From Treponema sp. (GTDB taxonomy: Bacteria; Spirochaetota; Spirochaetia; Treponematales; Treponemataceae): a stretch of DNA of 35,986 nucleotides. Positions 1 to 29,567 of this stretch are shown here, piece by piece. Under the pieces are notes generated by a model. The model was not told where the DNA came from. It made no database searches and worked only from the letters and a program-made list of their open reading frames with translations. Position numbers and translations under genes: made by a program. The stretch spans positions 1 to 35,986 of the forward strand of contig NZ_JAILGZ010000073.1 of the NCBI RefSeq assembly GCF_024696245.1, given 5' to 3'. Within the stretch, counting starts at the first letter, position 1. Every line of letters starts with the position of its first letter.

Positions 1-3000
1 TTGCTTACACTTTCTATCATGCGGTCACCGTCATCATAACTTGGACTTGAGTAGTATCCGTCAGACTGAATTGAATCACTTGAAGAATCAGGTTCACTTT
101 CCGGAGTTGTATTGTCTACGATTCCTGCAAGGGCAACATAAGCTGCTGTATAAGAAGCAGAAAGGTTGTCTGACAATGTTACTGTTGTTCCGCTGACAGA
201 ACTTACAAGATAATAACTTCCGCCAATACTTATAAGGGAATTAACGTGAACATTAGAAGTATCACTCATTGTTATTGAAGGACTTCCGGCTTCAGAAGTG
301 ATTGTCTTTCTGAACCAGTAAAGTCCGTTTTCTGAAACAAGGGTATTGTCACTTGTAGAAGTTTCTGAACCAAGGGCTGCAATTGTTTCTGAAGAAATAT
401 CAAATTCAGCATCATCCCTTGCCTGAAGAACATCATAAAGTTTAGTTACTGTAGAAGAGTTTTCTTCATAAGTACGCTTAAAGAAGAAGGCTGTATAGGC
501 AAAGCCAGACTGTGAAACACTATCAACATCATCTTCAGATGCAACAGAAGAGAAGGTGTACCAGTTGTTACTCTGCTTTACATCAGAACTGATATCAAAG
601 CCGTCATCACCGGAAGCAGCAATTACAGGAGCTTCATTATCATAGTTAATGCTTATTTCTGTAGAACCGGTATTTGCTGTACCTTCAGCACTATCAGTGG
701 CAGAAATTGTATAAGTAAGGGAACCTACACCGTCGTCAGTTGCAAGAGTGTATTCAAAGTAAACATCTGTCTTTGTACTTGAATCAACCCATTCAACACT
801 TGCTCCTGAAACTGTAAGAAGCTCTCCGCCTTCAATAAGAGAAACTGAACCGATAGAAAGTTCATCAAGACTGTCATCGTCATGAACATAACCGGTTAAA
901 GTCCAGCTGCCCTTAACATACATATCAGAAACATATTCCCTGGTAGCTGCAACTGTACTGCCGTCATACTGTACAAGACCAAGGTCATATACATAAGGAG
1001 TATCAGCATCAAAGCTTGCCATAATGCAGGTAGAAGGACTGAACTTACTGTCACTGTCCCTGGCAATAAACTTAAGGGCAATGGCATTTGTTGCTGTAGC
1101 AGAATCTTCAGTAGGGTTAAATTCTTCAGAACCGTTTATATCAAGATTCCAGTAAGTTCCACTGACAGAAACAAGAATTCCATAATCGTCTACAGAATAA
1201 CCAGAAGCTACAGAACTTGAACCGCTTACCCATGCTGTATTAGAAGAAGATGCATCATAAGTGCGCATGTTGTAAACGCTGTAACCACTAGCTGCAAGAT
1301 AATCCAGGTCCTTTGTTGTCATTGAGAAGTCTGTAACTTCATTAGCGTCATCGTAAGTAAAGCTTCCGTATCCGCTGGAAGTATCTGAACCATGACCGGT
1401 AGAAATAATCTGAACCCATACACTGTCAACACCAATATTTGTTCCGTAAGTATCTGTGGCTGTACCATAAACTTTTACAGTACCACCAAGAGTTGTTCCG
1501 GAAGCAGAAGGATAGCTTAAAGAAATAGAAGGCTTATCCCCCTGAGGATCAAACATAATTGTATAGCAGTCTTCAAATACGTTACCTGTTTCGTCGTAAG
1601 CTTTTATCCAGAGGTAAAGGTAAACTATGTTGTCAAAAGAAGTTACATCATCAGTAATACCAAAGCTTTCAAGATAATCAGTCATAAGGCTGGTATGAGT
1701 ACCTGTTTCTGATTCATCATTACCATCAAAGTATACACTCCATGAAGTTCCTGCATCTGTAATCTGAGCATAAGCTGGAGTTGCAGAACAAGTTCCGCTT
1801 ACAGCACTTCCGTTTGAATCAAGACCTGTCCATGCAGTTACGCTTGTACTTCCATCAGGAGCACTTTCTGAAGATGGAGAGAGGGCATAGTAAATTGAAG
1901 ATGCACCGGAAACTGTACCATAGGCAAGAACCGAGCCACTGGAAGTAACAGAAGAAGAAGGTCCTGTAAGTTCAACATCAGGAGCTGTATTATCAATTGC
2001 AACCTGAAGGGATTCTTCTGTCTCAAGACCGGCATTATCTGTAACCGTAACCTTAAGGGAATGAGTACCAGTTGTAAGGGTGTCAGATATTTCTACTTCA
2101 GAAATAGTACATGTACAGTAATACTTTCCGTTAGAATCAAGACTTGCAGTTCCAAGACTTCCTGTATGAACAGTATCATCTCCTGAGATTTCTGCTGTTA
2201 CGCTGGCAATGCCGTTTTCGTCTCCGGCACTGAATGTTACCGTAAACTTAGTACGGGTTCCTCCAAGAGTTGGGAGGGAAGAAGCAGTTTCTGACCATTC
2301 ATCTGTATCTGAGTCATAATATGAATATCTGATAGTTTCGATTACAGGAACTGTCTTATCTATTGCAATATAAAGAGGTAAAGATTTTATATTTGTTCCG
2401 TCAGAAAGTTTAGGCTGAGCAAGTTCACTTGTATTTGAAGTAATAAATTCTCCGCCTTCATTATCTGTAATCTTAAAGAGAACTTCATGGCTTCCGTCTG
2501 CAAGAGTAAAGCTGCCTGCTCCATTAGAAAGAGTTACAGTAGCTGCATCATCATCAGACCATACTCCATCAGTATCAATACAATACTCTATTGAAGAAAG
2601 AGTTCCGTCATCATCACTTACATAAAGCTGAAGGCTGCTTGTATTCTTAAGCCATACAGCAGAATCTGCATCTGCCATAGAGCTGATGTCTTCGATATTA
2701 GAAAGTGTAATTACAGGTCTGTCTGTATCCTGATCTACTTCTACAGCAAGAGGAGTTGAATATCCTGTATTTCCGGCTTTATCTGTTACGCTAAAGGTAA
2801 GGTAAACTGTAACACCATCATCAGCAAGTTCAGATGTTACTACATCACTTACAGTCCAGTTGTTTACGGCATCGATTTCTTTATAAAGAACCCAGCCCTC
2901 TGCTGCTGTACTTGCAGTTGTAAGGGAAGAAATTGAAGAAACATTTCCTGTAGTTTCATCACTAGTATAATAAAGGGAAATCATTCCGCCGCTTTCAAGA

Positions 3001-6000
3001 CCGCTCTTATCACTGGCAGTTCCCTTAATATCAATGGTTCCGTTAATCTGAATTCCATCAGCTGAAGAATCTGCATCAGAAGGAGAAGTAACCGAAAGAA
3101 CAGGGGCTGTCTTATCAACAGCAACTGTTGCAATACTTACCCTTGTTGAGTTACCACTTCCGGCATTATCAACAGCAGTTGCATATACAGTAACGTTTCC
3201 ATCTGAAGCATCACTAAATACCTCAGCTGCATCTATAGTAACAGTCCACTTTACATACTGAGAACTGTATTCATTTCCGTCATCATCACTTCCTGATGTA
3301 ACAAGTTCAATTGTTCCATAAGTTGTATCAGAAGAAGTAATAGTTTTTCCATTTACTTCGATAGTAACGGCTGCAATACCTGCGCCATTTCCGTCTGAAG
3401 CTGTTCCACTGAATACGAGATCCTCTGTTGCATTTGAATACAAGGTAGAAGAAGAAGCTGTAATAGTAGGAGCATCCGTATCAATATGAATGGCATAAGA
3501 CTGAATTCCATTCCATGAATAATCTCCTGATTCCCCATCATCTGAATAATCATCATCCCCATTAAAGTCATAGAATACTGTAAGGGAATCTACCGCTGCA
3601 TTACCTACGTTATCAACTGCAAGAAGAAGAAGATAATTGTCAGTTGCAGTAAATCCGGAAATAGTAGAAGAGTAATTGCTTTCTACTTCAGTAAAATATT
3701 TTACGCTGTCAGAATCTGTATAAGAAACTCTCTTTGTAGAAGTTGTAGTCAAAGGAGAGAAGCTGCCGCTGGAAGATGTTGCATAATTTTCCAGGAAGTC
3801 TGCTATTGCATCTGAATCAGGTTCTTCTGTAAGAATCTGATAGTAGATTTTTGCAAGTCCGGAACCAGTATCAAGGAAGTTACCCCTGATTTTAATTGAA
3901 GTATCATTTCCATAAGAACCAGATGAATACTTTCCGCCAACCTTACTGTCCAGTGAAGAATCATAGGTATACCCGGCAGCCGTAAGTTCATCACTACTAT
4001 TATCAGTATCACCAATACGGAAAACTATATCCTTGTTATTTGCATCTGCCCAGTGAAGTGCCTGAGGTCCTGCAAGGTCAAATACAATTGTAACTACAGA
4101 AGATGCAGAATTGCCTGCACCGTCTGTTACAGTAAACTTAGCCTGAGCACCTGTAGAGAGGGAACTTAAATCAACATCAGCAAATTCCCAGTTATAAAGA
4201 TTTCCGGAATTTTCAGGAACTGTTACAGAACTTGCCTCTCCGCTTGCTGTGAGAATATCGAGAGTAACAGAAGAAACTGCTTTTCCATCAGAAGCATTAC
4301 CCTTAAAGGTAAAGGTATTGCCGGAAGAATTATTTACATAATAAGCAGACTCAGAAGACTTATAGTAAGAAGAAGAGAATGAATTCAATGTAAGGGAAGG
4401 ATTTTCAGTATCAACTACAACTTCAAAAAGCCTTGCACTTACACTTACTACTGAAGAAGTTGCAATCTGGGTACAATTTTTACCATAAGCAACAAGCTTT
4501 CCGTCAGAAGAAGGCTGACTTACAAGCTTCCATGAGCGGATTAAAGTTTTATCAGTAAAGCTGTCATAAGAAGCCCAGTCTGAAATTTCTGCAAGGTCAT
4601 CTGCAGAAGTAAATTCTGTTGCAGAATAAAGCAGGGTATCAGGAACATAATCAACTGAATCAAGAGTAAAGGTAAGGTCTTCTACACCGCTGACAGAGTT
4701 TACATAAGAACCGTAAACAGTAACTTCTGTTTCTCCGTTTACATAAACATTGGAACCGGTCTTAGTAAGGGTTGAATCATTAGAAGTCTGATAATAAGAA
4801 GCAGTAAGTGTTGTATTTGTAGAATCCTTAATAGCAAATCCGTAATTATTGCCATCAAGGGCAACAAGGCTGTTGTCATTTGTATCAGTTCCAAGGATTT
4901 CTACCTTGTAATAAGAACCTGCTTTAAGACCAAATGAAGTATCAAGGTAAAGGGTATATGTATAAGTATCAACAGTTGTATCGTCACCGCTGACACTGTT
5001 ACCGTCACGATCAGTAATGTAAGTACCATCAGTTTCTATAACTGTATCTGTTTCAGCAAGATTAGAATCAAGAAGGATTATTTTTGCACCAAGAGTTGAA
5101 GGATATATTTCTGCCTTATCAATTCCGTAAGAAACCGTAACACTAAGGGAGCCGCTTACAGAAGCTGCAGCAATATCATCTGTATCAGTGTAAGAATAGT
5201 TTACGATTCTGTATGTAGGGTCTGCATCTGAATTAATCATAAAGGCAAACTTAGTATCTGCATCTGCACAATAAGTTACTGCAGTACCTGTCTGCTCATA
5301 AGTTCCCTCAAGAACAGCTTTTACAATAGCAATCTCTTCATCAGTAAGGGTTCCAGAATAAGAGTCTGTAAGAATCTGCATACATTCCTTTACATCTGGA
5401 ACAGAAGTAAGGCCTGCTGTTTTAAGAACTTCCGTAAGACTTTCGTCTAAGAAAACCTTTTCAGAAGAATTACCTAATTCATCATATATCTCAGCTACGG
5501 CATAAAATGTTTTGTTTGTATCCCAGCCGGAGCTGTTTTCTTCTCCATAAATGGCAATATAGTTGTCATAAAGAGCCTGCTGATTTTCGTCAAGGGAACT
5601 GGTATCTGAATAATAGCAGGCAATTGTAACAGCGGTAGAGTTGGCATCAAAACCTGTAAATGAGCTTTTAGCAAGTTCAATTTGATTTCCATCGGAGTCA
5701 TAAACAGAAACTTCCATTCTGTCCAGACTGTGACTGTCACTTATAACACCTGTAAGCTGAACCTTATGTCCAAAAAGATATAAATCCGTATCAGTATCAG
5801 AATCTATGCTTACAACCCCCGGCTTTTCCATAAAGAATAATGGTGCTGTAGTATCAACATCAAAAGTACTGGTTGGTTTACTTGAAGTATGTCCGGAAGA
5901 ATCATAGGCAACAGCAGAGATTTCGTAACTTCCGTCAGAAAGAGTTGCAAGACAGCCTTCAGTTGATTCAGAAAGAGCTGTTGCTAAAAGTGCTGACCAG

Positions 6001-6281
6001 TCATTGCCTTCACCAAGAGTGGCTTCCTGATCTTCAAAAATGACTTCTTCTGTATCCGTATCAATTTTTTTAAGGGTAAGGAGAACTTTTGTAACGCTTT
6101 TATCGTCAGACCATGTACCGGAAACAGTAATAGTATCCTTTACAAGATCTCCTGTAGCCGGATTAACTATAGATACAGTCGGAGCCCTTGTATCTACAGA
6201 AGGTCCAAGACCAATCTCACAGGCAACAAATGTTAAAACCAGAAGAGAAATTGATATTGATAAAAATTTTTTTAAGCTCAT
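1..6281 (-). CDS. Giant Ig-like repeat lipoprotein, 3' end outside window
   Basis: The frame is open from the ATG at 6281 to the left edge, giving at least 2093 codons with no stop, so the C-terminus is missing. A GGAG ribosome site lies 6 nt before this ATG; a second in-frame ATG at 6293 overlaps that site and was not chosen. The N-terminus is basic, then hydrophobic, and ends in FVAC with Cys21. This fits a spirochaetal lipoprotein signal, whose lipoboxes are relaxed. The rest is a chain of Ig/cadherin-like beta domains. Each typically opens with a VDTTAP, IDNTAP or VDKTAP linker, followed by a hydrophobic strand, a GTASD or GTATD turn and a later TDxAGN motif. The composition is rich in Ser, Thr, Asp and Gly and nearly free of Cys after residue 21. 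No enzymatic domain was recognised. Inferred role: surface or periplasmic structural protein or adhesin. The partner and membrane side are unknown. Confidence is high for the architecture and low for function. Confidence 0.85.
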   Translation of the reverse strand, partial: MSLKKFLSISISLLVLTFVACEIGLGPSVDTRAPTVSIVNPATGDLVKDTITVSGTWSDDKSVTKVLLTLKKIDTDTEEVIFEDQEATLGEGNDWSALLATALSESTEGCLATLSDGSYEISAVAYDSSGHTSSKPTSTFDVDTTAPLFFMEKPGVVSIDSDTDTDLYLFGHKVQLTGVISDSHSLDRMEVSVYDSDGNQIELAKSSFTGFDANSTAVTIACYYSDTSSLDENQQALYDNYIAIYGEENSSGWDTNKTFYAVAEIYDELGNSSEKVFLDESLTEVLKTAGLTSVPDVKECMQILTDSYSGTLTDEEIAIVKAVLEGTYEQTGTAVTYCADADTKFAFMINSDADPTYRIVNYSYTDTDDIAAASVSGSLSVTVSYGIDKAEIYPSTLGAKIILLDSNLAETDTVIETDGTYITDRDGNSVSGDDTTVDTYTYTLYLDTSFGLKAGSYYKVEILGTDTNDNSLVALDGNNYGFAIKDSTNTTLTASYYQTSNDSTLTKTGSNVYVNGETEVTVYGSYVNSVSGVEDLTFTLDSVDYVPDTLLYSATEFTSADDLAEISDWASYDSFTDKTLIRSWKLVSQPSSDGKLVAYGKNCTQIATSSVVSVSARLFEVVVDTENPSLTLNSFSSSYYKSSESAYYVNNSSGNTFTFKGNASDGKAVSSVTLDILTASGEASSVTVPENSGNLYNWEFADVDLSSLSTGAQAKFTVTDGAGNSASSVVTIVFDLAGPQALHWADANNKDIVFRIGDTDNSSDELTAAGYTYDSSLDSKVGGKYSSGSYGNDTSIKIRGNFLDTGSGLAKIYYQILTEEPDSDAIADFLENYATSSSGSFSPLTTTSTKRVSYTDSDSVKYFTEVESNYSSTISGFTATDNYLLLLAVDNVGNAAVDSLTVFYDFNGDDDYSDDGESGDYSWNGIQSYAIHIDTDAPTITASSSTLYSNATEDLVFSGTASDGNGAGIAAVTIEVNGKTITSSDTTYGTIELVTSGSDDDGNEYSSQYVKWTVTIDAAEVFSDASDGNVTVYATAVDNAGSGNSTRVSIATVAVDKTAPVLSVTSPSDADSSADGIQINGTIDIKGTASDKSGLESGGMISLYYTSDETTGNVSSISSLTTASTAAEGWVLYKEIDAVNNWTVSDVVTSELADDGVTVYLTFSVTDKAGNTGYSTPLAVEVDQDTDRPVITLSNIEDISSMADADSAVWLKNTSSLQLYVSDDDGTLSSIEYCIDTDGVWSDDDAATVTLSNGAGSFTLADGSHEVLFKITDNEGGEFITSNTSELAQPKLSDGTNIKSLPLYIAIDKTVPVIETIRYSYYDSDTDEWSETASSLPTLGGTRTKFTVTFSAGDENGIASVTAEISGDDTVHTGSLGTASLDSNGKYYCTCTISEVEISDTLTTGTHSLKVTVTDNAGLETEESLQVAIDNTAPDVELTGPSSSVTSSGSVLAYGTVSGASSIYYALSPSSESAPDGSTSVTAWTGLDSNGSAVSGTCSATPAYAQITDAGTSWSVYFDGNDESETGTHTSLMTDYLESFGITDDVTSFDNIVYLYLWIKAYDETGNVFEDCYTIMFDPQGDKPSISLSYPSASGTTLGGTVKVYGTATDTYGTNIGVDSVWVQIISTGHGSDTSSGYGSFTYDDANEVTDFSMTTKDLDYLAASGYSVYNMRTYDASSSNTAWVSGSSSVASGYSVDDYGILVSVSGTYWNLDINGSEEFNPTEDSATATNAIALKFIARDSDSKFSPSTCIMASFDADTPYVYDLGLVQYDGSTVAATREYVSDMYVKGSWTLTGYVHDDDSLDELSIGSVSLIEGGELLTVSGASVEWVDSSTKTDVYFEYTLATDDGVGSLTYTISATDSAEGTANTGSTEISINYDNEAPVIAASGDDGFDISSDVKQSNNWYTFSSVASEDDVDSVSQSGFAYTAFFFKRTYEENSSTVTKLYDVLQARDDAEFDISSETIAALGSETSTSDNTLVSENGLYWFRKTITSEAGSPSITMSDTSNVHVNSLISIGGSYYLVSSVSGTTVTLSDNLSASYTAAYVALAGIVDNTTPESEPDSSSDSIQSDGYYSSPSYDDGDRMIESVS

Positions 6282-6379
6282 ATTATTCTCCATAAAAAAC
6301 TCTAGGACCAGATTTACGAAAATTCTCAAAAGATATTCTCTATATCCTCGGAAGATTTTCTTAATAACATAAATATTAC

Positions 6380-6561: not shown

Positions 6562-7743
6562 ATGAAAGTAATTGAATTTATTAAAAAACCAGCAGTACTT
6601 ATTCCTGCCGCTGCCCTTATTCTCTTTGCTCTTGTAACTGCAGGAATCCTGAAATCATGTCAGGGTGGTGAATCAGCAAAGGCACAACCTGTAATCGTCT
6701 TTTATGATCTGGATGAAGATATAGAAGAAATCCTTAAATCCCAGATAGAAGAATTGTCCTCAGGCTTAGGCTGCAGTTACAGATTTAAGCACATTGACGG
6801 AGACAAAAAACTTAGTTCCAGGGAAATCAGAAACTACGAACTTTTGATTACAAAAAACGGTATTGCCGCTGATAATCTTTCTGAATCCACCATGACTATT
6901 TCTGACAGATGTTTTACTTCCGTGCCTAATTCACTTTCCATCAACAAAAAGATTCTTCCGATTATTCTTGATCACAATGAAGTTTCCGTTTATACAGTTC
7001 CCCAGAAAAAACTTAACCTTACCCTTCCCTCTACATGGAAGGAATACATGGCTTTTCTTAAGGCAGAACGAGACAGCAGTCTTATAGAAAATCCTTCTAT
7101 CTGTGCCGGAAAAGAAAACAGCCAGCTCTTTGGTTTTATAAGCAACCTTGCCCTTACAAAACTTGGCATTAACGGATACAAGGAACTTACTAAAGAACTG
7201 TCCCTCAGCAATGGAAGAACAGTTACTCCAATGCTTACATCCGTTCTTAACGAAATTAAGGAAATGCAGGACCAGGGACTGATTCTTAAAAACTGGTATG
7301 AAGTTACGGAAAGTGACCTCCTTCAGTATTACTTTAAGGAAAGAAAAACCGGTGTTTACTACATGAGCCTTTCCCTGCACAGAAAAGTTCAGCAGCTTTA
7401 CATCAAGTACTTTGAGACCATGGATTTTCCTAAAGCCGACATTGCTACAAAAGAAGCTGTAACAGGAAGCAGTATTTGTGCCCTTCAGATAAACAACAAA
7501 TTTAAAGGAGAAGAACTTTTAAGCATTCTTCTTTCTTCAAAAGTTCAGGAATACCTTACAGACAAAAGCCGCCTGGCGCCTGTAAATAAAAAATGCATGG
7601 CTTATGACAGTCAGTCTGATGACGTAAGGTTCTGGGTTGCAAGTTCACCGGCAGGACTTATTCCGGACATCAGCTATGCTTCCTTTGATGATCCTGTAAA
7701 GCGCAGCCGTCTGGCAGATGCAATCCGCTCTTACTTAAAATAA
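6562..7743 (+). CDS. Orphan extracellular solute-binding-protein-like lipoprotein
   Basis: The product is 393 residues. The N-terminus has a long hydrophobic stretch ending in LKSC (Cys33), a plausible lipobox; otherwise it is an uncleaved membrane anchor. The body resembles family 1 (sugar-type) ABC solute-binding proteins. It has a central PSTWKEYMAFLK segment like the P-x-TW-x-E-h-h-x-h-h element of that family, and a late segment with SSKVQEYLTD followed by APVNKK, which matches the usual ending around S-x-x-V-Q-x-Y-L and P-V-N-K. No permease or ATPase gene is adjacent, so it may feed a distant transporter or act as a sensor or regulatory lipoprotein. There is no Shine-Dalgarno sequence, and the -10 box abuts the ATG. 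The family assignment rests on motif resemblance only and the ligand is unknown. The gene faces the downstream giant Ig gene and shares its terminator. Confidence 0.65.
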   Translation: MKVIEFIKKPAVLIPAAALILFALVTAGILKSCQGGESAKAQPVIVFYDLDEDIEEILKSQIEELSSGLGCSYRFKHIDGDKKLSSREIRNYELLITKNGIAADNLSESTMTISDRCFTSVPNSLSINKKILPIILDHNEVSVYTVPQKKLNLTLPSTWKEYMAFLKAERDSSLIENPSICAGKENSQLFGFISNLALTKLGINGYKELTKELSLSNGRTVTPMLTSVLNEIKEMQDQGLILKNWYEVTESDLLQYYFKERKTGVYYMSLSLHRKVQQLYIKYFETMDFPKADIATKEAVTGSSICALQINNKFKGEELLSILLSSKVQEYLTDKSRLAPVNKKCMAYDSQSDDVRFWVASSPAGLIPDISYASFDDPVKRSRLADAIRSYLK

Positions 7744-7942: not shown

Positions 7943-10900
7943 TTAGAATACGCTTGTACGTATACCAAGTGATACTGTAAACACTTCCTTCTTAGCATCA
8001 TCACTGGCAATATCCGATGGAATAAACCAGATCTGAGGTTCAGTGTAAAGGGACCAGGTCTTAAAGAGCTTTGCATTCGGAATGGTTACCCTAGGGAACT
8101 CAATCTGAACAAGAGCTGCAGAAAGTACCTGTGATACCTTTTCTCCATCTGTAGAAGTAGCACCAGAATCCGTAAAGTAAGAGAAGTTTGCACCTACAGA
8201 AATAGAAGCACTAAGCCAGTCCCAGTCACGGCCAAAGAAGTACCTGAATGGAATATATCCAATCTGAGCAATAATCTTTGCACCGATTACGTTACCACCA
8301 AAGCGCAGGTCTGTATGTGACTGACCAAGCATGTCAGAAACCATATCACGCTGGCTCTGGGTAAACTGACCAAAGTTAGCCTGAATCTTAACTGCATTAT
8401 CGAATGCTGTAAGACCAATACCAACATTGTAAAGGGTTGCTCCCCATACGCTTACATCAAAGTAAAGACCCTGAATAAAGGCTGGTACTTCATAAGCAGC
8501 CTTGTCACCCTTACGAAGTTCAAACTTAACTGACTTAAGGTTTACGTCATCACTGGTAAGTCCCTTAAAGTTAAGCTGCTGGTTGTAATGACCGCCTTCT
8601 CCCGGTGAAATAAGCTTGATTACAGGAGCTGTTCTGTCAATCTGAACAATAGTTCTTGTAATTGCATTTTCTCCGTTGTACATCTCTGCCTTTACAAGCA
8701 TAAAGTGGGTTCCGGCTGCAATATCAAGGTTTTCAATTCTGTAAGACCAGTTACCCCTGTTCTTGCGGGAAACTGCCTTATAAGACTTACCATTGTCAAA
8801 GCTTACGTATACGCCCTTAATCTTTTTACCTTCAAGTTCACGCCTGCGTTCTACAGAAATATTCTTTTTGTCCTTAAGCTCTGCCTTTTCTTCTTCTGTA
8901 AGAATGTAGCCGGCATTACCTGCAAGGAGAGGTCTGTTCTGAGCAAAGTCACCGTAAGTAAAGTCTGCATTATCCAGAGTTACCCATGGACCATTAGGAG
9001 CGTAAACAAAGGTCTGTTCACGGCTTTCGATTACCTTACCATTCTTTGTGTGGGAGATAACCTTATATCTGTAAACACCTGCTGTAAGGGATACTGTCTT
9101 ATCCTTACCCTCTTCGTCTTTAAGAACGTTTCCTTCCTTGTCATAGAGTTTGTAAACAGGGCAGATTCTGAACTTAAAGTAGCCGTTTGGAGTAAGCATA
9201 CTTGTATTCTTTGTAACATTCTTTCCATAAGGGAGGTGTTCTGCAGCGGCAATAATCCTATTGTCAGAATTAAGCTGTCCGCTTCCGTCCTTAAGGGAAA
9301 TCTCTACATACTGAACAGGGTCATCTTCTTCTGAACTTGTTATACCGTAAATGTTGAATTCACCATTAAGATGTTCACCATTAAGAGGGTAAAGAAGTTC
9401 TGCCCTGGCAAGCTGAGTTTTTGAATCCAGCTGAATGTTGCGGCTTACACGGGTTACGTTTCCGGCAGCATCTTTTCCTGTAAGTTCTACGTTATAGAAG
9501 CCGTCATTAAGGGAACGTTCAATATCAATAATTTCAGAAATAATTTCTGAAGGTGTAAGTTCATAGTGAGCAAGGCGTGATGGTACTGTCTTACCTTCAA
9601 GGGAACGTACTGTAATGTAAAGTTCAGTAAGTCCGATGTTGTCTGTTGTCTGTCCTGAGAAGAAGAGGTTCTTAGAAGTCTTACTGTCATCAAGAGGAAG
9701 CTCAAGCCTGAGTTCAGGAGCAGTATTATCAATGTTAATCAAAGATGAATAAAGACCTGTAATTCCATAGCCGTCATATACCTTAAAGAATACTACGTGA
9801 GTTCCGTCCTGAATTACACGGGTATCAAAAGTATAGCTCCAGTTTGTAGTACCTTCTGCATCATTATAAGAAGCACCGTTATCAATAGAAACCTGAACCT
9901 TACTGATTCCGTTTTTATCGCTGGCAGTTCCCCTGAGGGTTACAATACCCTTAACAGTCTTACTGATATCAGGTTCATTCATCCAGCCCTTTGGTTCTTC
10001 AAGAGAAATACGGAACTTGCGGACATCTTCTGAACCACGGATACCGTTACGGTCAACAGAGTAAACACTTACACTATGTTCGTTGTCTGTCATTGAAGAA
10101 AGTGGAACTTCAATTTCGTAGTTATAGCGGAGGTTTGCATCATCAGTTTCTGCAAGAGAAGGATCAGATGATACAAGCTGATAACGGCCACTGTCTATTC
10201 TATAGTAAACACGGCTTGGACCGTCATCATCAGAAACTACACCGGAAATCTTAAAGTCTGTAGTAAGAACCTGATTTTCTTCCGGCAGGTTAATTTCTAC
10301 AACAGGCTTGTCTGATTCAGAGTTAACTTTAAATTCCCAGCTGTAAGATGAATCAGGAATTACAGTTGAGTTTCCGGCTGCATCTGTAAATACAAATGAC
10401 ATCCTGTTATCAATAGGGAATGCTGCTGTTCCTACTTCCATATGTGGCAGTGAAGAATTAAGGGTCTTTAACGGATTATTTCTGTCTGCTACAGGAACTT
10501 CCTTTCCTTCACTGTCTGTAAGTGTTTTTGCCGGAATATCTTCCGGATGAGCATAGATTTCAAATTCTTCTGAACGTGCTCCACCTGGAGAACGATATGT
10601 AATGCTCTTAAGAAGACCAGCTTCTTTTACAAGGAAGCCGATTGTATTTTCACCGTTAACGCTTGTACTTGCTGCATCAGGAAGAATAACCTGAACCTGA
10701 GGAGCAGTTGTATCTTTCTGAACTACAGTATTGCAGTAAGCAATTTTTCCGGAAGTATCTTTTGCACGGAGTGAAAGACCTGCATATCCGTCAGGAATAT
10801 CACTAAGGTCTACTGTAAAGCTGAATTCTCCGCCACCCTTTGGAATAGAAACAGGCTTCCATTCAGCATCTGCATTATCAGAGAGAGTATATTCAAGGGA

Positions 10901-13900
10901 AGAAACACCATTACCATCTGTAACAGAACCGCTTACACGGAATGACTTCTGTACAAAGGCCATATCCTTAGGTCTGTTAAGGGTAATAGTTGGTTTTGAT
11001 GTATCTACAACAAGGGTAACTTCCGGAGAATTATATGCACCACCGGCTTCGTCTGTTACACGGATAGAAACACCCCTGTATGTACCGTCAGAAGTAGCCT
11101 TAAAGAGAACTGTGTTATTAGGACCGGCTTCTGCAGTTAATCCGCGAACATCGCCCCGGACAGAAGCCTTTATGTTCTGGAAAGGAATATTTGCAAATGC
11201 CTTAAGGGCTGCACCGTCATTAAGAACATAAGATGTACCGCTGAGAGTTACACCATCTGTCTCTGACCAGAAAATCTTTGCAGCATTGTTAAGTACTGCA
11301 TGGGTTCTGAGAACAATAATTGTTCCTGTAATTTCTTTCTTTGTACCACCTGCAGTTGTAACAACAGCCTTGAGGGAGTTAATTTTTGCAGGGAGGTTTG
11401 CCAGAGGGAATTCTGCTGAATATTCAGGACCGGTAGAACCAGGAAGAATAGCAGCTGATTTTTCCGAACCGCCGTTAAAGCTGTATGTAACGCCTGTAAC
11501 TGCAGCATTTGAATTTATTTTAATAAGACCCTTATGACCGGCTTCTGCATTTGTTCCCTTTTCAAGAACAATAGACATACCGCTCTTATAAGGAGCACCA
11601 TCGATTTCTGCAAAATGAGCATCGATTTCTACAGGAGCAGAAACAGACAGGCTTTCTGTATAAGAAGGAGCCTTTCCCTTAACTTCTGCATCTGTTGCCT
11701 TTACTTCAAATTTAAGTGAACCGGTGTCGGCCTTAATTTCGTCAGCCTTAACTACCTTAAAGAGGTTGTCACATTCACCCTGGTAAACACAGATTCCGTA
11801 ATAGTTTTCTCCTTTAAGCCAGAAAAGCTTTGGATCTTTTTTAGAAGACTTTTTATCACCGCCAGCTGCAGGAGGATATGGGATTTTTCTTACAAAAACA
11901 GCCTCTGCTGATTTTTTACCTGATGCTGATTCAGCAACAAGTTCAACAACATACATACCGTCAGAAGCAAATTCCTTGTCTGTTGTAAGATTTGTAATTG
12001 AGAACTTACCCCTTCTGTTAAGGTCAACCTTCGTTAATTCAGAAGTTTCAGGATTGCTGATTACAGAAATAAAACCGCTGTCATCAATCTGAACTTTAGC
12101 AGAGAAAATTCTGTAAGAAATACTTACATCTGAATCTGCAGTTACTCCACCACTAATAGAAAGTTTGTCACTCTGGGTAAGGAACTCAAAGGCCCTTCCG
12201 TTTTCAGTGTCATATTTAGAAGTTGAATCAATTGTAATTACAGGAGCCTTTTCATCAGAATAGAAATACATTTCCTGTGAATCGTAGTTTGTCCAGATAT
12301 CTGTTGTAACCCTTACCTTAAACTTAGCACTGGAAGCACCAGGAGCAGCTGTTACCGTAATAACATTTCCGTCAAAGGCTGCACTTACACCCCTTACTGC
12401 AGGAACTGTTGCTACGGAAGAAATCTTTCCGCCGGCAAAATATCCTGTAAGAGGATAGTCAGGATTAATCTTTACTGCACCATTTTCTGCAACAATTGAA
12501 TCTGTAAAGTATACACCTGGTTTTTCTACATTAATCTGAGTAAGGTCAGTTATATTAAGGATTGCATAATGAAGGCTTTCCCTGTCGTAAATATCAGTTG
12601 CCCTGACAGTAACTTTTGAGAAGCCCCATGGAATATCGTCTCCACCTAAAGGAATACTTACGGTAGCTGACTTTGCGTTTTCTCCAACAGTAAGATCCTT
12701 TTTAATGCTGCCGTTTGAGCCCCAGCTTAATTCCCAGTTAACGGCTTTAAGACCACAGCTGGAATTTACCTTTATTTCGTAAGAACCATTTTCTTCCGGA
12801 TTAATCTTCATACCGTCAGTAAATTCCTGAGAAGATTTACCTGAAAGATATTTTGCCCCGGAATAAGTTGGAGCAATTCCCTTAGACTGGAAGGAAACAG
12901 AAGTTTCGTTACCCTTTACACCATATTTATCTACTGCATAGGCTGTAAGGGTATGAGTACCATCGCTTAATGCACCAGGAATCTGTGTATAGAAAACACC
13001 GTTACATTCAACTGTAGATTCATCTTTGCCATCAAGGGAGTAAATAACCTTTACAACACCATCATCGTCTTCTGCAATACCACGAATAAAGAGAAGTCCG
13101 TCTTCTCCGTCTACACCTTCGTTTTCTACAGGATACTTAATGCTTACAAGAGGCTTGTCTGCTTCCTGATCAAGAAGAATAGTACGCTTTTCTGTTACAG
13201 TATTACCCATAATATCTGTAGCGGTAATCTGGAAAGTTTCTGACTTCTTGTTAATCTTACGGGTATCAAGTTCTACAGACCAGTAAGGATTTCCTGGAAT
13301 AAGGCTGTGGTTATCATCTACGTCCTTATATTCTTCCTTAAAGTCATCCCTTGCATAGAAAGCGCCGGAAAGATCACCAAAGCTCCATTCAAGCTTTTTA
13401 ATACCGTTTACTTCACGCTTTTCTACTTCTTTAGTTTCTTCTCCGTCCTTAATCTTTTCTTTTTTGTAACTGCCTAAAGCATAACCGGCAACACTAAAGA
13501 TACCATTCTGAGCTTCCTTTTCCTGTGGAGTAAGAATCTCAATTTTAGGAGGATTGTTCTTTACAAGGAAAAGATATGTAAGCCTTCCTACTGAACCTGC
13601 ACCGTCCCTTGCCTTTAAAAGACACTTGCGGGCACCTTCTTCAAGCTGACGGCTGTCTACTGTAATGGAAAATTCATATACAACAGAAATACCCTGAGCC
13701 TTTAATGATTCATATTCAGCCTTTCTTTCTTCACCCTGGAAATATTTTGATTTTTCAAGTTTTACTTCTTTAAGATCAGCTGCTTCAAGGTCTGCAAACT
13801 TCTTTTCTTCGTTACAGCTATATTCAAGACTCTGTATTCCGTTACCGTCTGTAACATAACCTTCAATCTTAAAGCGGCCGCTCTTCATTGAACCCATTTC

Positions 13901-14695
13901 TGCAGGATTCATTACGTGGATTTCCGGAGTACGGCGGTCAAGCTGCCATGTTACCTTTACAGAATCACCTCTGTCAGAAATAAGAGGATTTTTAATCTTA
14001 CCGTTCTTTTCGTATTCTTCATTTAACTTTGCAAGATCTTCAGAAGCAAGGGCTTCCTTTGCCTTTATACGCTTGTCTTCTATTTCCTTGATTTTTTCTT
14101 CTGAAAAATTATATGGAGGGCCCATAAGGATTTTCTTATCCTTTTCCCAGGCTTCATCAATAGGAGCTGACTTATCAATACCGTAAACTTCTATTGTATG
14201 AGGACCTTCAAGCCATTCAGTTGTATTAAGTTCATAAGACCAGAATTCCCTTCCGTTTGCAGGCTGAGGAATTCCCTTATAAGGACCGTCATCAAAAATA
14301 ATATAAACTACATCAACACCATCATCATCAGTACAGGTACCAACAATATTAAGGTTACCAGGTACACGCATTCCTTCTGAAGGATTTGTAATACCAACTA
14401 CAGGTTTGTCCGACTCTGAGTCTATGTAAATATTATAAGGACCGGCAACAGTAGTGTTTCCAGCCTGGTCTTCTGCTGTAACTACAATGTTGTACTTACC
14501 TTCTTTTTTCTGCTCAAGAGGGAATGTTTTTTCCCAGCTGTTAAGAGTATTACCGTCTTCCTCTTTGTGGGCTTCTCCAGCCTCTACAGAAGAGGGAATA
14601 GTCTGTTCATCTACCTTTGCAGGATTAGGTGCAGCAGAGGACTGTATTCCAATAATTGAGGCACAAAACAATATTATTAAAGCTTTCTTAAACAT
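7943..14695 (-). CDS. Giant Ig-repeat protein with C-terminal outer-membrane barrel-like domain
   Basis: The product is 2250 residues. The ATG follows a GGAGAG ribosome site. Residues 1-22 form a Sec signal peptide with a likely cut near SSA-AP. At least eight Ig/cadherin-like modules follow. Each has the pattern hydrophobic strand, NPxE or xPxE, basic or polar turn, then FxIxGxVxDDDG or VTDGNG and xxYxxD; clear examples begin with VGITNPSEG, VSIKYPVEN, ITLNRPKDM and VEINLPEEN. A Lys/Glu-rich stretch near residues 195-240 could be helical. The last ~190 residues (about 8515-7946) change character to alternating aromatic and small residues, with motifs such as GLYFDVSVWG, GYIPFRYFFG and SISVGANFSYF, and the chain ends in Phe. 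This resembles a small outer-membrane beta-barrel with a terminal aromatic insertion signal. Inferred role: surface-anchored structural protein or adhesin. It is likely related to the Ig lipoprotein at 1-6281. Confidence 0.85.
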   Translation of the reverse strand: MFKKALIILFCASIIGIQSSAAPNPAKVDEQTIPSSVEAGEAHKEEDGNTLNSWEKTFPLEQKKEGKYNIVVTAEDQAGNTTVAGPYNIYIDSESDKPVVGITNPSEGMRVPGNLNIVGTCTDDDGVDVVYIIFDDGPYKGIPQPANGREFWSYELNTTEWLEGPHTIEVYGIDKSAPIDEAWEKDKKILMGPPYNFSEEKIKEIEDKRIKAKEALASEDLAKLNEEYEKNGKIKNPLISDRGDSVKVTWQLDRRTPEIHVMNPAEMGSMKSGRFKIEGYVTDGNGIQSLEYSCNEEKKFADLEAADLKEVKLEKSKYFQGEERKAEYESLKAQGISVVYEFSITVDSRQLEEGARKCLLKARDGAGSVGRLTYLFLVKNNPPKIEILTPQEKEAQNGIFSVAGYALGSYKKEKIKDGEETKEVEKREVNGIKKLEWSFGDLSGAFYARDDFKEEYKDVDDNHSLIPGNPYWSVELDTRKINKKSETFQITATDIMGNTVTEKRTILLDQEADKPLVSIKYPVENEGVDGEDGLLFIRGIAEDDDGVVKVIYSLDGKDESTVECNGVFYTQIPGALSDGTHTLTAYAVDKYGVKGNETSVSFQSKGIAPTYSGAKYLSGKSSQEFTDGMKINPEENGSYEIKVNSSCGLKAVNWELSWGSNGSIKKDLTVGENAKSATVSIPLGGDDIPWGFSKVTVRATDIYDRESLHYAILNITDLTQINVEKPGVYFTDSIVAENGAVKINPDYPLTGYFAGGKISSVATVPAVRGVSAAFDGNVITVTAAPGASSAKFKVRVTTDIWTNYDSQEMYFYSDEKAPVITIDSTSKYDTENGRAFEFLTQSDKLSISGGVTADSDVSISYRIFSAKVQIDDSGFISVISNPETSELTKVDLNRRGKFSITNLTTDKEFASDGMYVVELVAESASGKKSAEAVFVRKIPYPPAAGGDKKSSKKDPKLFWLKGENYYGICVYQGECDNLFKVVKADEIKADTGSLKFEVKATDAEVKGKAPSYTESLSVSAPVEIDAHFAEIDGAPYKSGMSIVLEKGTNAEAGHKGLIKINSNAAVTGVTYSFNGGSEKSAAILPGSTGPEYSAEFPLANLPAKINSLKAVVTTAGGTKKEITGTIIVLRTHAVLNNAAKIFWSETDGVTLSGTSYVLNDGAALKAFANIPFQNIKASVRGDVRGLTAEAGPNNTVLFKATSDGTYRGVSIRVTDEAGGAYNSPEVTLVVDTSKPTITLNRPKDMAFVQKSFRVSGSVTDGNGVSSLEYTLSDNADAEWKPVSIPKGGGEFSFTVDLSDIPDGYAGLSLRAKDTSGKIAYCNTVVQKDTTAPQVQVILPDAASTSVNGENTIGFLVKEAGLLKSITYRSPGGARSEEFEIYAHPEDIPAKTLTDSEGKEVPVADRNNPLKTLNSSLPHMEVGTAAFPIDNRMSFVFTDAAGNSTVIPDSSYSWEFKVNSESDKPVVEINLPEENQVLTTDFKISGVVSDDDGPSRVYYRIDSGRYQLVSSDPSLAETDDANLRYNYEIEVPLSSMTDNEHSVSVYSVDRNGIRGSEDVRKFRISLEEPKGWMNEPDISKTVKGIVTLRGTASDKNGISKVQVSIDNGASYNDAEGTTNWSYTFDTRVIQDGTHVVFFKVYDGYGITGLYSSLINIDNTAPELRLELPLDDSKTSKNLFFSGQTTDNIGLTELYITVRSLEGKTVPSRLAHYELTPSEIISEIIDIERSLNDGFYNVELTGKDAAGNVTRVSRNIQLDSKTQLARAELLYPLNGEHLNGEFNIYGITSSEEDDPVQYVEISLKDGSGQLNSDNRIIAAAEHLPYGKNVTKNTSMLTPNGYFKFRICPVYKLYDKEGNVLKDEEGKDKTVSLTAGVYRYKVISHTKNGKVIESREQTFVYAPNGPWVTLDNADFTYGDFAQNRPLLAGNAGYILTEEEKAELKDKKNISVERRRELEGKKIKGVYVSFDNGKSYKAVSRKNRGNWSYRIENLDIAAGTHFMLVKAEMYNGENAITRTIVQIDRTAPVIKLISPGEGGHYNQQLNFKGLTSDDVNLKSVKFELRKGDKAAYEVPAFIQGLYFDVSVWGATLYNVGIGLTAFDNAVKIQANFGQFTQSQRDMVSDMLGQSHTDLRFGGNVIGAKIIAQIGYIPFRYFFGRDWDWLSASISVGANFSYFTDSGATSTDGEKVSQVLSAALVQIEFPRVTIPNAKLFKTWSLYTEPQIWFIPSDIASDDAKKEVFTVSLGIRTSVF

Positions 14696-14808: not shown

Positions 14809-14870
14809 AAGTAACAATTAAAATGTCAAATTTCTCCAATTTTATTATGGGGGTAAATTTCTTTAAAAAG

Positions 14871-14879
14871 TGTTATACT
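14871..14879 (+). promoter_or_regulatory. Extended -10 promoter of the Sir2 gene
   Basis: TG-T-TATACT is an extended -10 element. It implies a start near 14886, just before the AAGGAG ribosome site at 14887-14892. No good -35 box is visible. It overlaps an upstream in-frame ATG at 14870, which therefore cannot be the translation start of this transcript. Confidence 0.6.
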
Positions 14880-14899
14880 TTTTAAGAAGGAGACTGTTT

Positions 14900-15634
14900 A
14901 TGGAAGAAAATATTTCAAAACTTCAGGAACTTATAAATTCCAGCAGTAAAATCGTATTTTTTGGAGGTGCAGGAGTTTCTACAGAAAGCGGAATTCCTGA
15001 TTTTAGAAGTACGGACGGACTTTACCACCAGAAATGGGACTACCCTCCGGAAACCATACTGAGCCACGAGTTTTTCTTTGGAAAGACTAAGGAATTTTAC
15101 CGCTTTTACAGGGAAAAACTTCTTGTATCTGGAATTGAACCTAATGCAGCCCATAAAAAGCTGGCAGAAATGGAAGAAAAGGGAAAGCTTCTTGCAGTTA
15201 TTACCCAGAACATAGACGGACTTCACCAGAGTGCCGGGAGTAAAAAAGTCCTGGAACTTCATGGAAGCACCCTGCGTAACTACTGTACTAAATGCGGAAA
15301 ATTTTACGACGCTGATTATATAAGGGATAACAGTGATGAAGAAGGAATCCCCCGCTGTATGGAATGCGGCGGACTTATAAAACCGGATGTAGTTCTTTAC
15401 AACGAAGGTCTTGATGACAAATGCGTATCTGATTCAATTAATGCACTAATGGAAGCTGACCTTCTTATTATTGGAGGAACTTCCCTTACGGTATACCCTG
15501 CTGCCGGACTTATTCAGTATTACCGGGGAAAAGACATAGTTTTAATAAACAGGGATCCAGGCTCCGGAGATAATATTGCCAGCCTGGCCATTCACGACTC
15601 AATAGGAAAGGTTCTGTCACAGATAAAAGTCTGA
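14900..15634 (+). CDS. cobB: NAD-dependent protein deacylase, Sir2 family
   Basis: The product is 244 residues from the ATG at 14900, which has AAGGAG 7 nt upstream. It removes acyl groups from lysine side chains using NAD+, releasing nicotinamide and O-acyl-ADP-ribose, in the cytoplasm. The family signatures are visible in order: the Rossmann loop GAGVSTESGIPDFR (about 23-36), TQNIDGLH (102-109), the catalytic His121 in ELHGS, a structural zinc site of Cys129/Cys132 and Cys153/Cys156, then GTSLTVYPA and INRD in the second half of the Rossmann fold. The length matches bacterial sirtuins. The residues Ala and Tyr/Arg that would mark a desuccinylase were not assessed with confidence, so acyl preference is open. 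It has its own extended -10 promoter. rsmE follows 20 nt after the stop but appears to have a separate promoter. Confidence 0.93.
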   Translation: MEENISKLQELINSSSKIVFFGGAGVSTESGIPDFRSTDGLYHQKWDYPPETILSHEFFFGKTKEFYRFYREKLLVSGIEPNAAHKKLAEMEEKGKLLAVITQNIDGLHQSAGSKKVLELHGSTLRNYCTKCGKFYDADYIRDNSDEEGIPRCMECGGLIKPDVVLYNEGLDDKCVSDSINALMEADLLIIGGTSLTVYPAAGLIQYYRGKDIVLINRDPGSGDNIASLAIHDSIGKVLSQIKV

Positions 15635-20275: not shown

Positions 20276-20304
20276 TTGAAAGAATATCTTTCTAAGTTTA
20301 TTAT
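20276..20304 (+). promoter_or_regulatory. Promoter of the HAD-methyltransferase fusion gene
   Basis: TTGAAA (20276-20281) and TATTAT (20299-20304) are separated by exactly 17 nt. The TTG could be read as an in-frame start codon, but it is better explained as the -35 box. The true ATG is at 20315, 10 nt after the -10 box, giving a leader of only a few nucleotides. Confidence 0.75.
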
Positions 20305-20314
20305 TCCCTTACTT

Positions 20315-21562
20315 ATGACGGAACTTTATATTTTTGACTTTGACGGCGTAATTATTAACTCAGCTGATGACATTGCAGACAGTATCAATGCAGCTTTAAA
20401 ACATTTTACCTACTGGACCCTTGAAGAAAACCAAATAAAGAATCTTATAGAAGATGACCTTAAAAAAACATTAGTAAATTGCCTTCTCCTTTCTACAAAA
20501 AATCATTACAGATGTGACGATGAAGAAAAAACAGAAAGCATATACCAGCAGTTCCTTAAGGAATACAGAAGCAGGGCAACGGACAAGACAAATCTCTATG
20601 CAGGAATAAAGGAACTTCTTAAAGTCCTTAAGAAAAAAAATAAATACACTGCCCTTATGTCATTAAAATGTCCGGAGCTTACAGAAAGAATCCTTAATTA
20701 CTTTGAAATAGATTCTTACTTTGATGTAATCTCTTACTCTAAAAATATAGAAGAGGCAGTAAATCAAATAAATACAAAAACCGGAAGCCACTTTAAATGT
20801 CAGGATGCAATTGTTTTATCTGACTGCCTTCAGGACATAGAAAATGCCAGGGCTGCCGGATGTAAAAGTGTAGCAGTTCGTGGAGGCATGGGTAAAAGGG
20901 AAGAACTTGTAAAGTGCAATGCGGACCTTTGCTTTAGTGTTGCCAGCGAAATAGAAAAATTCATCAGCATACTTTCTGACCCGGCAAGAGAATCAGAAGT
21001 AAAAAACTTTGCCATGAAAAACGAAGTTCCAATTATGCAGGACGAAGGTTCTGACTTTATATGCAGTTACATTAAGGAAAACAATATAAAAAATATTCTG
21101 GAAATAGGTTCTGCCATAGGTTACTCTTCCATGAAGTTTGCACGCCTTAATCCGGACATACATGTTACTACAATAGAAATTGACAAAAGCCGCTATGACA
21201 CTGCAGTAGAAAACTTTAAGAAAAACAATCTTGAGCAGCAGATAAAAATATTTAACGGAGATGCCCTGACCTATCCTATAGAAGGAAAATACGACCTTAT
21301 TTTTATAGATGCTGCAAAGGCCCAGTACATTAAGTTCTTTGAACGCTTTAAAAACAATCTTGCAGATAATGGAGTTATTTTTAGCGACAACCTTTCTTTT
21401 CATGGAATGGTAGAAGATTTGTCACTTACCCATAACTACAGCACCATTAAGCTTGTAAAAAAAATCCGCAAGTACATAGATTTTTTAAAAAACAACGAAG
21501 AGTTTACAACTGAATTTTTTGACTGCGGTGACGGTATTTCCATTTCTAAAAAAAAGAGCTGA
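20315..21562 (+). CDS. HAD-family phosphatase fused to TrmR-type O-methyltransferase
   Basis: The product is 415 residues with two enzyme domains. Residues 1-~215 are a phosphoglycolate-phosphatase-like HAD hydrolase: nucleophile and acid Asp8/Asp10 in FDFDGV, Ser116 in the motif II position, and Asp170/Asp174 in LSDCLQDIENA (motif IV). Residues ~225-413 are a class I, family 3 methyltransferase. They contain NEVPIM, the cofactor loop ILEIGSAIGYSS (261-272), FIDAAKAQY (330-338), SDN (357-359) and the ending GDGISIS. These match TrmR/YrrM, which methylates 5-hydroxyuridine at tRNA position 34 to 5-methoxyuridine. That tRNA role is inferred from family resemblance. The substrate of the phosphatase half is unknown. 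The gene has its own near-leaderless promoter, and a terminator overlaps the stop codon. Confidence 0.88.
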   Translation: MTELYIFDFDGVIINSADDIADSINAALKHFTYWTLEENQIKNLIEDDLKKTLVNCLLLSTKNHYRCDDEEKTESIYQQFLKEYRSRATDKTNLYAGIKELLKVLKKKNKYTALMSLKCPELTERILNYFEIDSYFDVISYSKNIEEAVNQINTKTGSHFKCQDAIVLSDCLQDIENARAAGCKSVAVRGGMGKREELVKCNADLCFSVASEIEKFISILSDPARESEVKNFAMKNEVPIMQDEGSDFICSYIKENNIKNILEIGSAIGYSSMKFARLNPDIHVTTIEIDKSRYDTAVENFKKNNLEQQIKIFNGDALTYPIEGKYDLIFIDAAKAQYIKFFERFKNNLADNGVIFSDNLSFHGMVEDLSLTHNYSTIKLVKKIRKYIDFLKNNEEFTTEFFDCGDGISISKKKS

Positions 21563-29529: not shown

Positions 29530-29567
29530 AAAATACCTCAATTAAAGTGTAATATTTTTATTCGATA

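Follow-up and report, generated by a model that had tools for sequence, protein, structure and literature searches.

The window analysed here is a stretch of 35,986 nucleotides that runs from base 1 of contig C75 in a 2.66-Mb Treponema assembly; close relatives of this genome are rumen and gut treponemes. Its reverse strand carries an open reading frame (ORF) at 7943..14695 that starts with ATG and encodes 2250 amino acids, opening with a Sec-type signal as judged by eye and closing with a terminal Phe, which is absent from two of 20 relatives (L150 and L155). A preliminary description of the sequence had proposed the order of Sec signal, immunoglobulin-like (Ig) chain and C-terminal barrel, and this plan is borne out by the ORF, by Pfam and by an AlphaFold2 model. 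The features of the gene and of its neighbours are listed in Table 1.

Table 1. Features of the barrel protein gene and adjacent genes in the window
Feature	Position (residues)	Strand	Basis
First giant Ig lipoprotein, truncated at the contig end (N-terminal 2097 residues present)	3..6293	-	Start Met by homology, lipobox ..FVAC by eye, Pfam Big_7/Big_13
393-aa ORF between the barrel and lipoprotein genes	6562..7743	+	ORF list; no Pfam match up to E 1e-5
Eight-stranded outer-membrane barrel (predicted), terminal Phe	7946..8485 (2071-2250)	-	AlphaFold2, VIA-align, conservation
C-terminal half-Ig, first half only (strands about A-B-C), G2045 and D2049	8486..8623 (2025-2070)	-	Own Ig model, Big_7, constant length
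Ig chain	8624..14401 (99-2024)	-	Pfam, own Ig model, conservation in 50-residue bins
N-terminal half-Ig, second half only (strands about E-F-G), W54 and D76	14402..14560 (46-98)	-	Own Ig model, Pfam Big_13, 157/160 proteins
Sec-type signal peptide	14630..14695 (about 1-22)	-	Sequence read by eye

The window protein is a bacterial tandem Ig-repeat protein, with Pfam matches to Big_7 (187.6 bits, cut-off 24.1) and Big_13 (87.6 bits) that both lie far above the curated cut-offs, along with a match to the NCBIfam Ca_tandemer model (62 bits, cut-off 50). An Ig model of 91 positions built from the family itself, and trained solely on whole internal domains, finds 14-15 matches, whole or partial. Conservation in 50-residue bins rises towards both ends of the chain, and the region around residues 750-1050 is variable. 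The barrel is covered by no Pfam or NCBIfam match, either in the window protein or in the last 291 residues of 56 sequences, 31 of which contain a Big_7 match in that segment. Sequence searches of the PDB gave best E values of 0.39 for the whole protein, 0.86 for alignment A1 (defined below) and 0.5 for A2.

Elsewhere in the window, a Sir2-type gene (14870-15634) is divergent from the barrel gene and belongs to a BLAST group found in 34 loci, the window included. Positions 20276-21562 encode a 428-residue protein that fuses a HAD-type hydrolase to an O-methyltransferase, and at 21590-29541 a penicillin-binding protein 1C-like gene (identified by eye) directly follows a bacterial alpha-2-macroglobulin gene, whose 1934-residue product has a bait region and A2M domains.

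Distribution of the family and its lipoprotein neighbours

The 180-residue C-terminal segment is found in 88 of 118 genomes of the genus, which argues that it is more than a chance feature. Each genome has one match, at 47-91% identity when the query's own copy is set aside, and the segment mostly closes an open frame of 1400-2274 codons. Seventy loci in named records carry it, including those of T. ruminis (L071), T. berlinense (L075) and Brucepastera (L079). Alignment A1 contains 55 of these 70 loci and the window protein; the 15 loci outside it (L048, L068, L070, L072, L080-L082, L084-L086, L088, L090-L092 and L103) were excluded without a set criterion. The larger set of 160 proteins used below is the non-redundant part of 170 complete ORFs, from 175 in all.

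A profile of the last 291 residues matched 80 of 296 genomes of the phylum. Fifty-seven of these belong to the class or nearer and are matched to the barrel end, nine are strong matches outside the class (E under 1e-40), and 14 are weaker matches that we did not use. No match was found in a 1.1-Mb genome of the same family or in seven listed genomes of 1.0-1.8 Mb from family f6 of the class. Genome G361 carries two barrel-type genes in tandem (L226 and L227), and L104-L106 likewise have two in a row.

The window lipoprotein is 67% identical to a complete protein of 3186 amino acids that occupies the same place in genome G001, where the barrel protein gene (2252 aa) is followed by a 395-aa ORF on the other strand and by three giant lipoprotein genes (3186, 3229 and 3673 aa). 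The 395-aa ORF resembles the 393-aa ORF of the window in size, strand and place; relatives of the latter occur in six further loci. Additional lipoprotein parts of the window genome lie on contig C128 (L158 1-3540 and 3796-14865). By analogy with G001, there seem to be three giant Ig lipoprotein genes in a row in the window genome too, and contigs C75 and C128 both break inside such genes, probably owing to the similarity of the paralogues.

Linkage of this kind is common. Across the 58 loci with sufficient flanking sequence, a long ORF of the same Ig-related BLAST group, here called a partner, is next downstream of the barrel gene in 36, three of which (L104-L106) have a second barrel-type gene in that position, and lies within 1.2 kb upstream in six more. 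All seven partner ORFs whose start was inspected have a lipobox-like Cys, and the complete ones carry a propeller-like domain at their C-terminus (see below). The two proteins also occur together across genomes, as counted by eye in two tables of 296 phylum genomes each. Within the class, 56 of the 57 barrel genomes have the lipoprotein C-terminal domain (G307 has the barrel only), and no genome has this domain without the barrel; outside the class, seven of the nine strong barrel genomes have it, the exceptions being G144 and G155. The C-terminal domain is a probable propeller, based on a poor model (pLDDT 51.9) for which Foldseek returned sialidase- and glycosidase-like propellers (best E 1.5e-6); Pfam and PDB sequence searches gave nothing useful for this region.

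Half-domains at the two ends of the Ig chain

The Ig chain is out of phase with its own domains. In the window protein, the first match begins in the middle of the fold, covering positions 39-87 of the 91-position model (i-E 3.9e-7) and positions 59-101 of the 102 in Big_13. The last match, directly before the barrel, covers model positions 2-37 (i-E 5e-3) and positions 1-39 of 70 in Big_7 (E 0.0046, below the cut-off). Across the 160 proteins, the chain opens with a second half in 157 and closes with a first half in 140; 137 show both features, and the median split points are model positions 38 and 37. These counts depend on the limits chosen, since 137/160 comes from wider limits that were set afterwards and strict limits gave 70/86. 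Of the 16 misses under strict limits, nine lack an above-threshold half next to the barrel, five are borderline cases and the other two (L079 and L148) start with a whole Ig domain; 23 of the 160 miss under the wider limits. In five deep-branching members, the first Ig match is preceded by 143-273 residues, and four of these start with a half at weak E values (0.004-0.06), the fifth being L148.

The median distance from the signal core to the N-terminal half is 12 residues, too short for the missing strands (154 proteins; a crude measure with a maximum of 114). Few stretches of the protein are as conserved as the barrel-proximal half, yet AlphaFold2 places 31 of its 47 residues (model residues 66-112) under pLDDT 50, so that it is predicted to be mostly unfolded, as expected of half a domain. 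We also considered that the true repeat unit might be a second half followed by a first half, which would make both ends whole. AlphaFold2 left the last second half and the first half that follows it unfolded, which speaks against this unit. These complementary ends, like the linked giant lipoproteins, had been missed in the preliminary description.

The lipoproteins served as a control for the phase of the chain, and 28 of the 29 that have an Ig match within the first 120 residues (29 of 33) start with a whole domain. This control also bears on the idea that the halves are completed in trans by incomplete Ig units of the giant lipoproteins. The co-occurrence of the two proteins and the partial Ig matches in the seven lipoproteins examined would fit such an exchange, but those partial matches may be whole domains with insertions and the lipoproteins begin with whole domains, so we consider completion in trans very unlikely.

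Whether the two halves pair with each other can be approached through covariation. In a direct coupling analysis (DCA) that drew on 1753 whole internal Ig domains (effective number 1029), the top contacts between first and second halves were (20,69), (16,47) and (18,67). Corrected mutual information between the C-terminal and N-terminal halves in the 160 proteins peaks at (16,47), which corresponds to G2045 and W54, with (20,69) in sixth place. Scored over the top 5, 10, 20 and 30 contacts, the C-half with the N-half has raw-score ranks of 3, 10, 6 and 6 among 42 combinations and corrected ranks (rows and columns) of 4, 10, 7 and 7, and the five true domains take raw-score ranks 1-5 at 20 and 30 contacts. 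With contacts learnt from other domains, the ranks are 3, 8, 8 and 10 at 10, 20, 40 and 80 positions.

Other scores are lower. When DCA couplings of matched and shuffled proteins were compared, the two halves ranked 30, 11 and 7 of 42 with a best z of 1.84, against z of about 5-20 for true pairs (10.6-19.8 where the halves score best), although these true pairs lie inside the DCA training set. The matched coupling score itself ranks 27, 23 and 23 of 42, a template-free block score ranks 30 of 42, and nothing stands out in the plain block values. With 10 contacts, the two halves are outranked by four non-partner pairs and about equalled by the neighbouring pair of the first Ig domain and the N-half, and several non-partner pairs pass the permutation test as well. 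Part of the covariation signal is thus column conservation.

Paired substitutions provide a second line of evidence. G2045 and W54 occur together in 147 of the 160 proteins and are replaced by Ala and Phe in 10 proteins of one clade, the eleventh member of which has Gly and Phe; on the tree, this replacement requires a single substitution at W54 and two substitutions at G2045, all in the one clade. D2049 and D76 occur together in 156 of the 160, and both are Gly in a single sequence, L206, in which eight of nine listed internal domains keep the two Asp residues. In internal domains the two Asp residues co-occur with an odds ratio of 86, and the pair looks like a Ca2+ site, in keeping with the Ca_tandemer match.

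The covariation and the paired substitutions hint that the halves join, and we consider their pairing likely. Alternatively, the halves may be unpaired, with the N-terminal half as a capping piece and the 48-residue stretch before the barrel as a linker that engages BAM, the barrel or some partner. The low coupling and template-free scores speak for this, as does the conservation of the stretch, which is high enough for an independent role. We nevertheless regard unpaired halves as rather unlikely, given a split point that is the same in 137 proteins, covariation that falls at Ig contacts, and the joint loss of the Asp pair in L206 at the ends of a chain whose internal domains mostly retain it.

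The predicted C-terminal barrel and the side of the membrane on which the chain probably lies

The AlphaFold2 model built from 56 sequences predicts eight strands in residues 2071-2250 (model residues 117-124, 130-138, 143-152, 173-190, 202-218, 230-245, 254-265 and 278-289), with mean pLDDT of 70-95 in 10-residue blocks. VIA-align places three outer-membrane barrels within the top six matches, each spanning the segment: NspA (Z 13.8, rmsd 3.4, 144 aligned), the OprF barrel (13.6) and OmpA (12.6). Foldseek alone is weak here (best E 0.002, OmpA), and soluble eight-stranded barrels such as avidin (Z about 9) are also among the VIA-align matches. In six of the eight strands, a clearly hydrophobic face lies opposite a polar one, and in every strand conservation across the 56 sequences is higher on the more polar face; strands 4 and 6 barely alternate in and out. 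Residues conserved on the polar faces include D121, K144, Q146, K181, Q238, E240, E260 and R287 (A1 numbering). We favor a predicted eight-stranded membrane barrel over a soluble one because of the polar lumen and the hydrophobic outside of these six strands, and the polar, conserved faces read as a closed, OmpA-like interior.

A structure prediction had been called for in the preliminary description, which saw a barrel-like segment of about 190 residues ending in Phe and much smaller than the usual 12 strands. The predicted barrel has 180 residues and, by AlphaFold2 and VIA-align, the smaller size that was expected, and on the eight-stranded model we reject a further Ig domain or a soluble domain in this position.

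With eight strands, both termini of the barrel lie on one side. On the opposite side, loops L2, L3 and L4 (after strands 3, 5 and 7) range over 5-22, 5-12 and 5-22 residues among the 56 sequences and also vary in sequence; L1, after strand 1, is short, constant and conserved despite lying on the supposed outside. On the side of the termini, turn T1 is fixed at 4 residues, T2 at 11 and T3 ranges from 6 to 12, and the stretch before the barrel is 48 residues long in 56 of 56 sequences. In known outer-membrane barrels, the side that bears the termini lies in the periplasm. By this analogy, the variable loops opposite, the nearly invariant N-terminal side and the polar lumen make it more likely that the Ig chain faces the periplasm, which had been suggested before and appears to be the better reading. 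The accompanying idea of a spacer to the wall is not supported, since the Pfam matches of the window protein include no peptidoglycan-binding domain and a row of about 13 Ig domains would outreach the width of the spirochaete periplasm.

The main rival for the chain is an adhesive role at the surface, in which the Ig chain would be exposed in the manner of an autotransporter, with the small barrel as its anchor and export assisted by BAM or by a helper of another kind, and would act together with the lipoproteins. The order of signal, passenger and C-terminal barrel fits such a protein, adhesins often contain Ig chains and propellers, and three of the 56 members touch the Pfam Autotransporter family (best E 0.007). 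We still judge a surface adhesin unlikely, as the barrel is predicted to have eight strands, its lumen is polar and conserved, and both termini emerge on its conserved side.

A proposed envelope scaffold and its relation to known systems

The reading that we prefer, to which we give about an even chance, is an Ig scaffold in the periplasm that is anchored in the outer membrane, with its half-domains joined within a molecule or head to tail and with the giant lipoproteins as partners. The chain would be exported by Sec and the barrel inserted by BAM, both of which are known pathways. Closed by polar side chains, the barrel would serve as an anchor and not as an exporter, and about 13 Ig domains would hang from its periplasmic side. 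The N-terminal half-Ig could then dock on the half that waits at the barrel. Docking within one molecule would close the chain into a loop that is tethered to the membrane at its two ends, and docking on a neighbour would produce a head-to-tail chain along the membrane; either is compatible with the sequence. Neither arrangement would have the row of domains standing upright in the periplasm, and the giant lipoproteins encoded next door may share the scaffold as partners.

A more far-reaching version holds that the split Ig domain is completed between molecules, the N-terminal half of one protein pairing with the barrel-proximal half of the next and so forming a head-to-tail chain under the outer membrane with a barrel rivet at each joint, and that chain and lipoproteins together make up an envelope skeleton of Treponema and many relatives that is missing in the smallest genomes; to this we assign a low probability. 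The rival explanations considered above are compatible with one another.

An Ig chain that is rooted in a barrel and has complementary ends is a concrete candidate for one of the parts that hold and shape the spirochaete outer membrane around the periplasmic flagella. The listings of our literature searches contained no description of an Ig-barrel envelope system in treponemes. No Ig-barrel protein is named in the excerpts consulted from PMC3931704 (including its Table 2), PMC7171239 and PMC8407342, and T-Mac of T. denticola, as presented in part of PMC11833123, differs in architecture. The findings point to a large and widely conserved treponeme envelope system that, with its barrel also left uncovered by Pfam and NCBIfam matches, seems to be nameless.

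Several known systems share features with the Treponema protein. Type Va autotransporters have in common with it a Sec signal, a repetitive N-terminal passenger and a C-terminal barrel that ends in Phe, but their barrel has 12 strands and their passenger is a beta-helix, whereas the Treponema protein has Ig modules that are probably periplasmic. The Autotransporter beta-domain (PF03797) gives no match to the window protein up to E 1, and assignment to type Va is rejected on the strand number in the AlphaFold2 model. Inverse autotransporters (intimin and invasin, type Ve) have an N-terminal 12-stranded barrel and a row of Ig domains. They resemble the Treponema protein as outer-membrane barrels that bear an Ig row, but the order is reversed and the Treponema barrel is smaller, and this assignment is rejected because the barrel is C-terminal.

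Leptospiral Lig proteins are spirochaete lipoproteins with many Ig domains and by this description resemble the partner lipoproteins; we know of no barrel partner for them. In the donor-strand-complemented fibres of chaperone-usher pili, an incomplete Ig-like fold is completed by a segment from elsewhere. The Treponema protein has complementary halves at the level of sequence, with weak covariation between them, and its incomplete fold may likewise be completed from elsewhere. The fibres donate a single strand, in contrast to about half a domain here, where each subunit also has 11-19 Ig matches and a barrel of its own.

OmpA and OprF share with the Treponema protein an eight-stranded outer-membrane barrel, as predicted here, a polar lumen and probably a periplasmic part. 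The OmpA-type C-terminal peptidoglycan-binding domain has no counterpart, as the protein ends in the barrel and gives no Pfam match to such a domain. OmpA and OprF carry the barrel at the N-terminus, whereas the Treponema protein carries it at the C-terminus, with an Ig chain as its other part.
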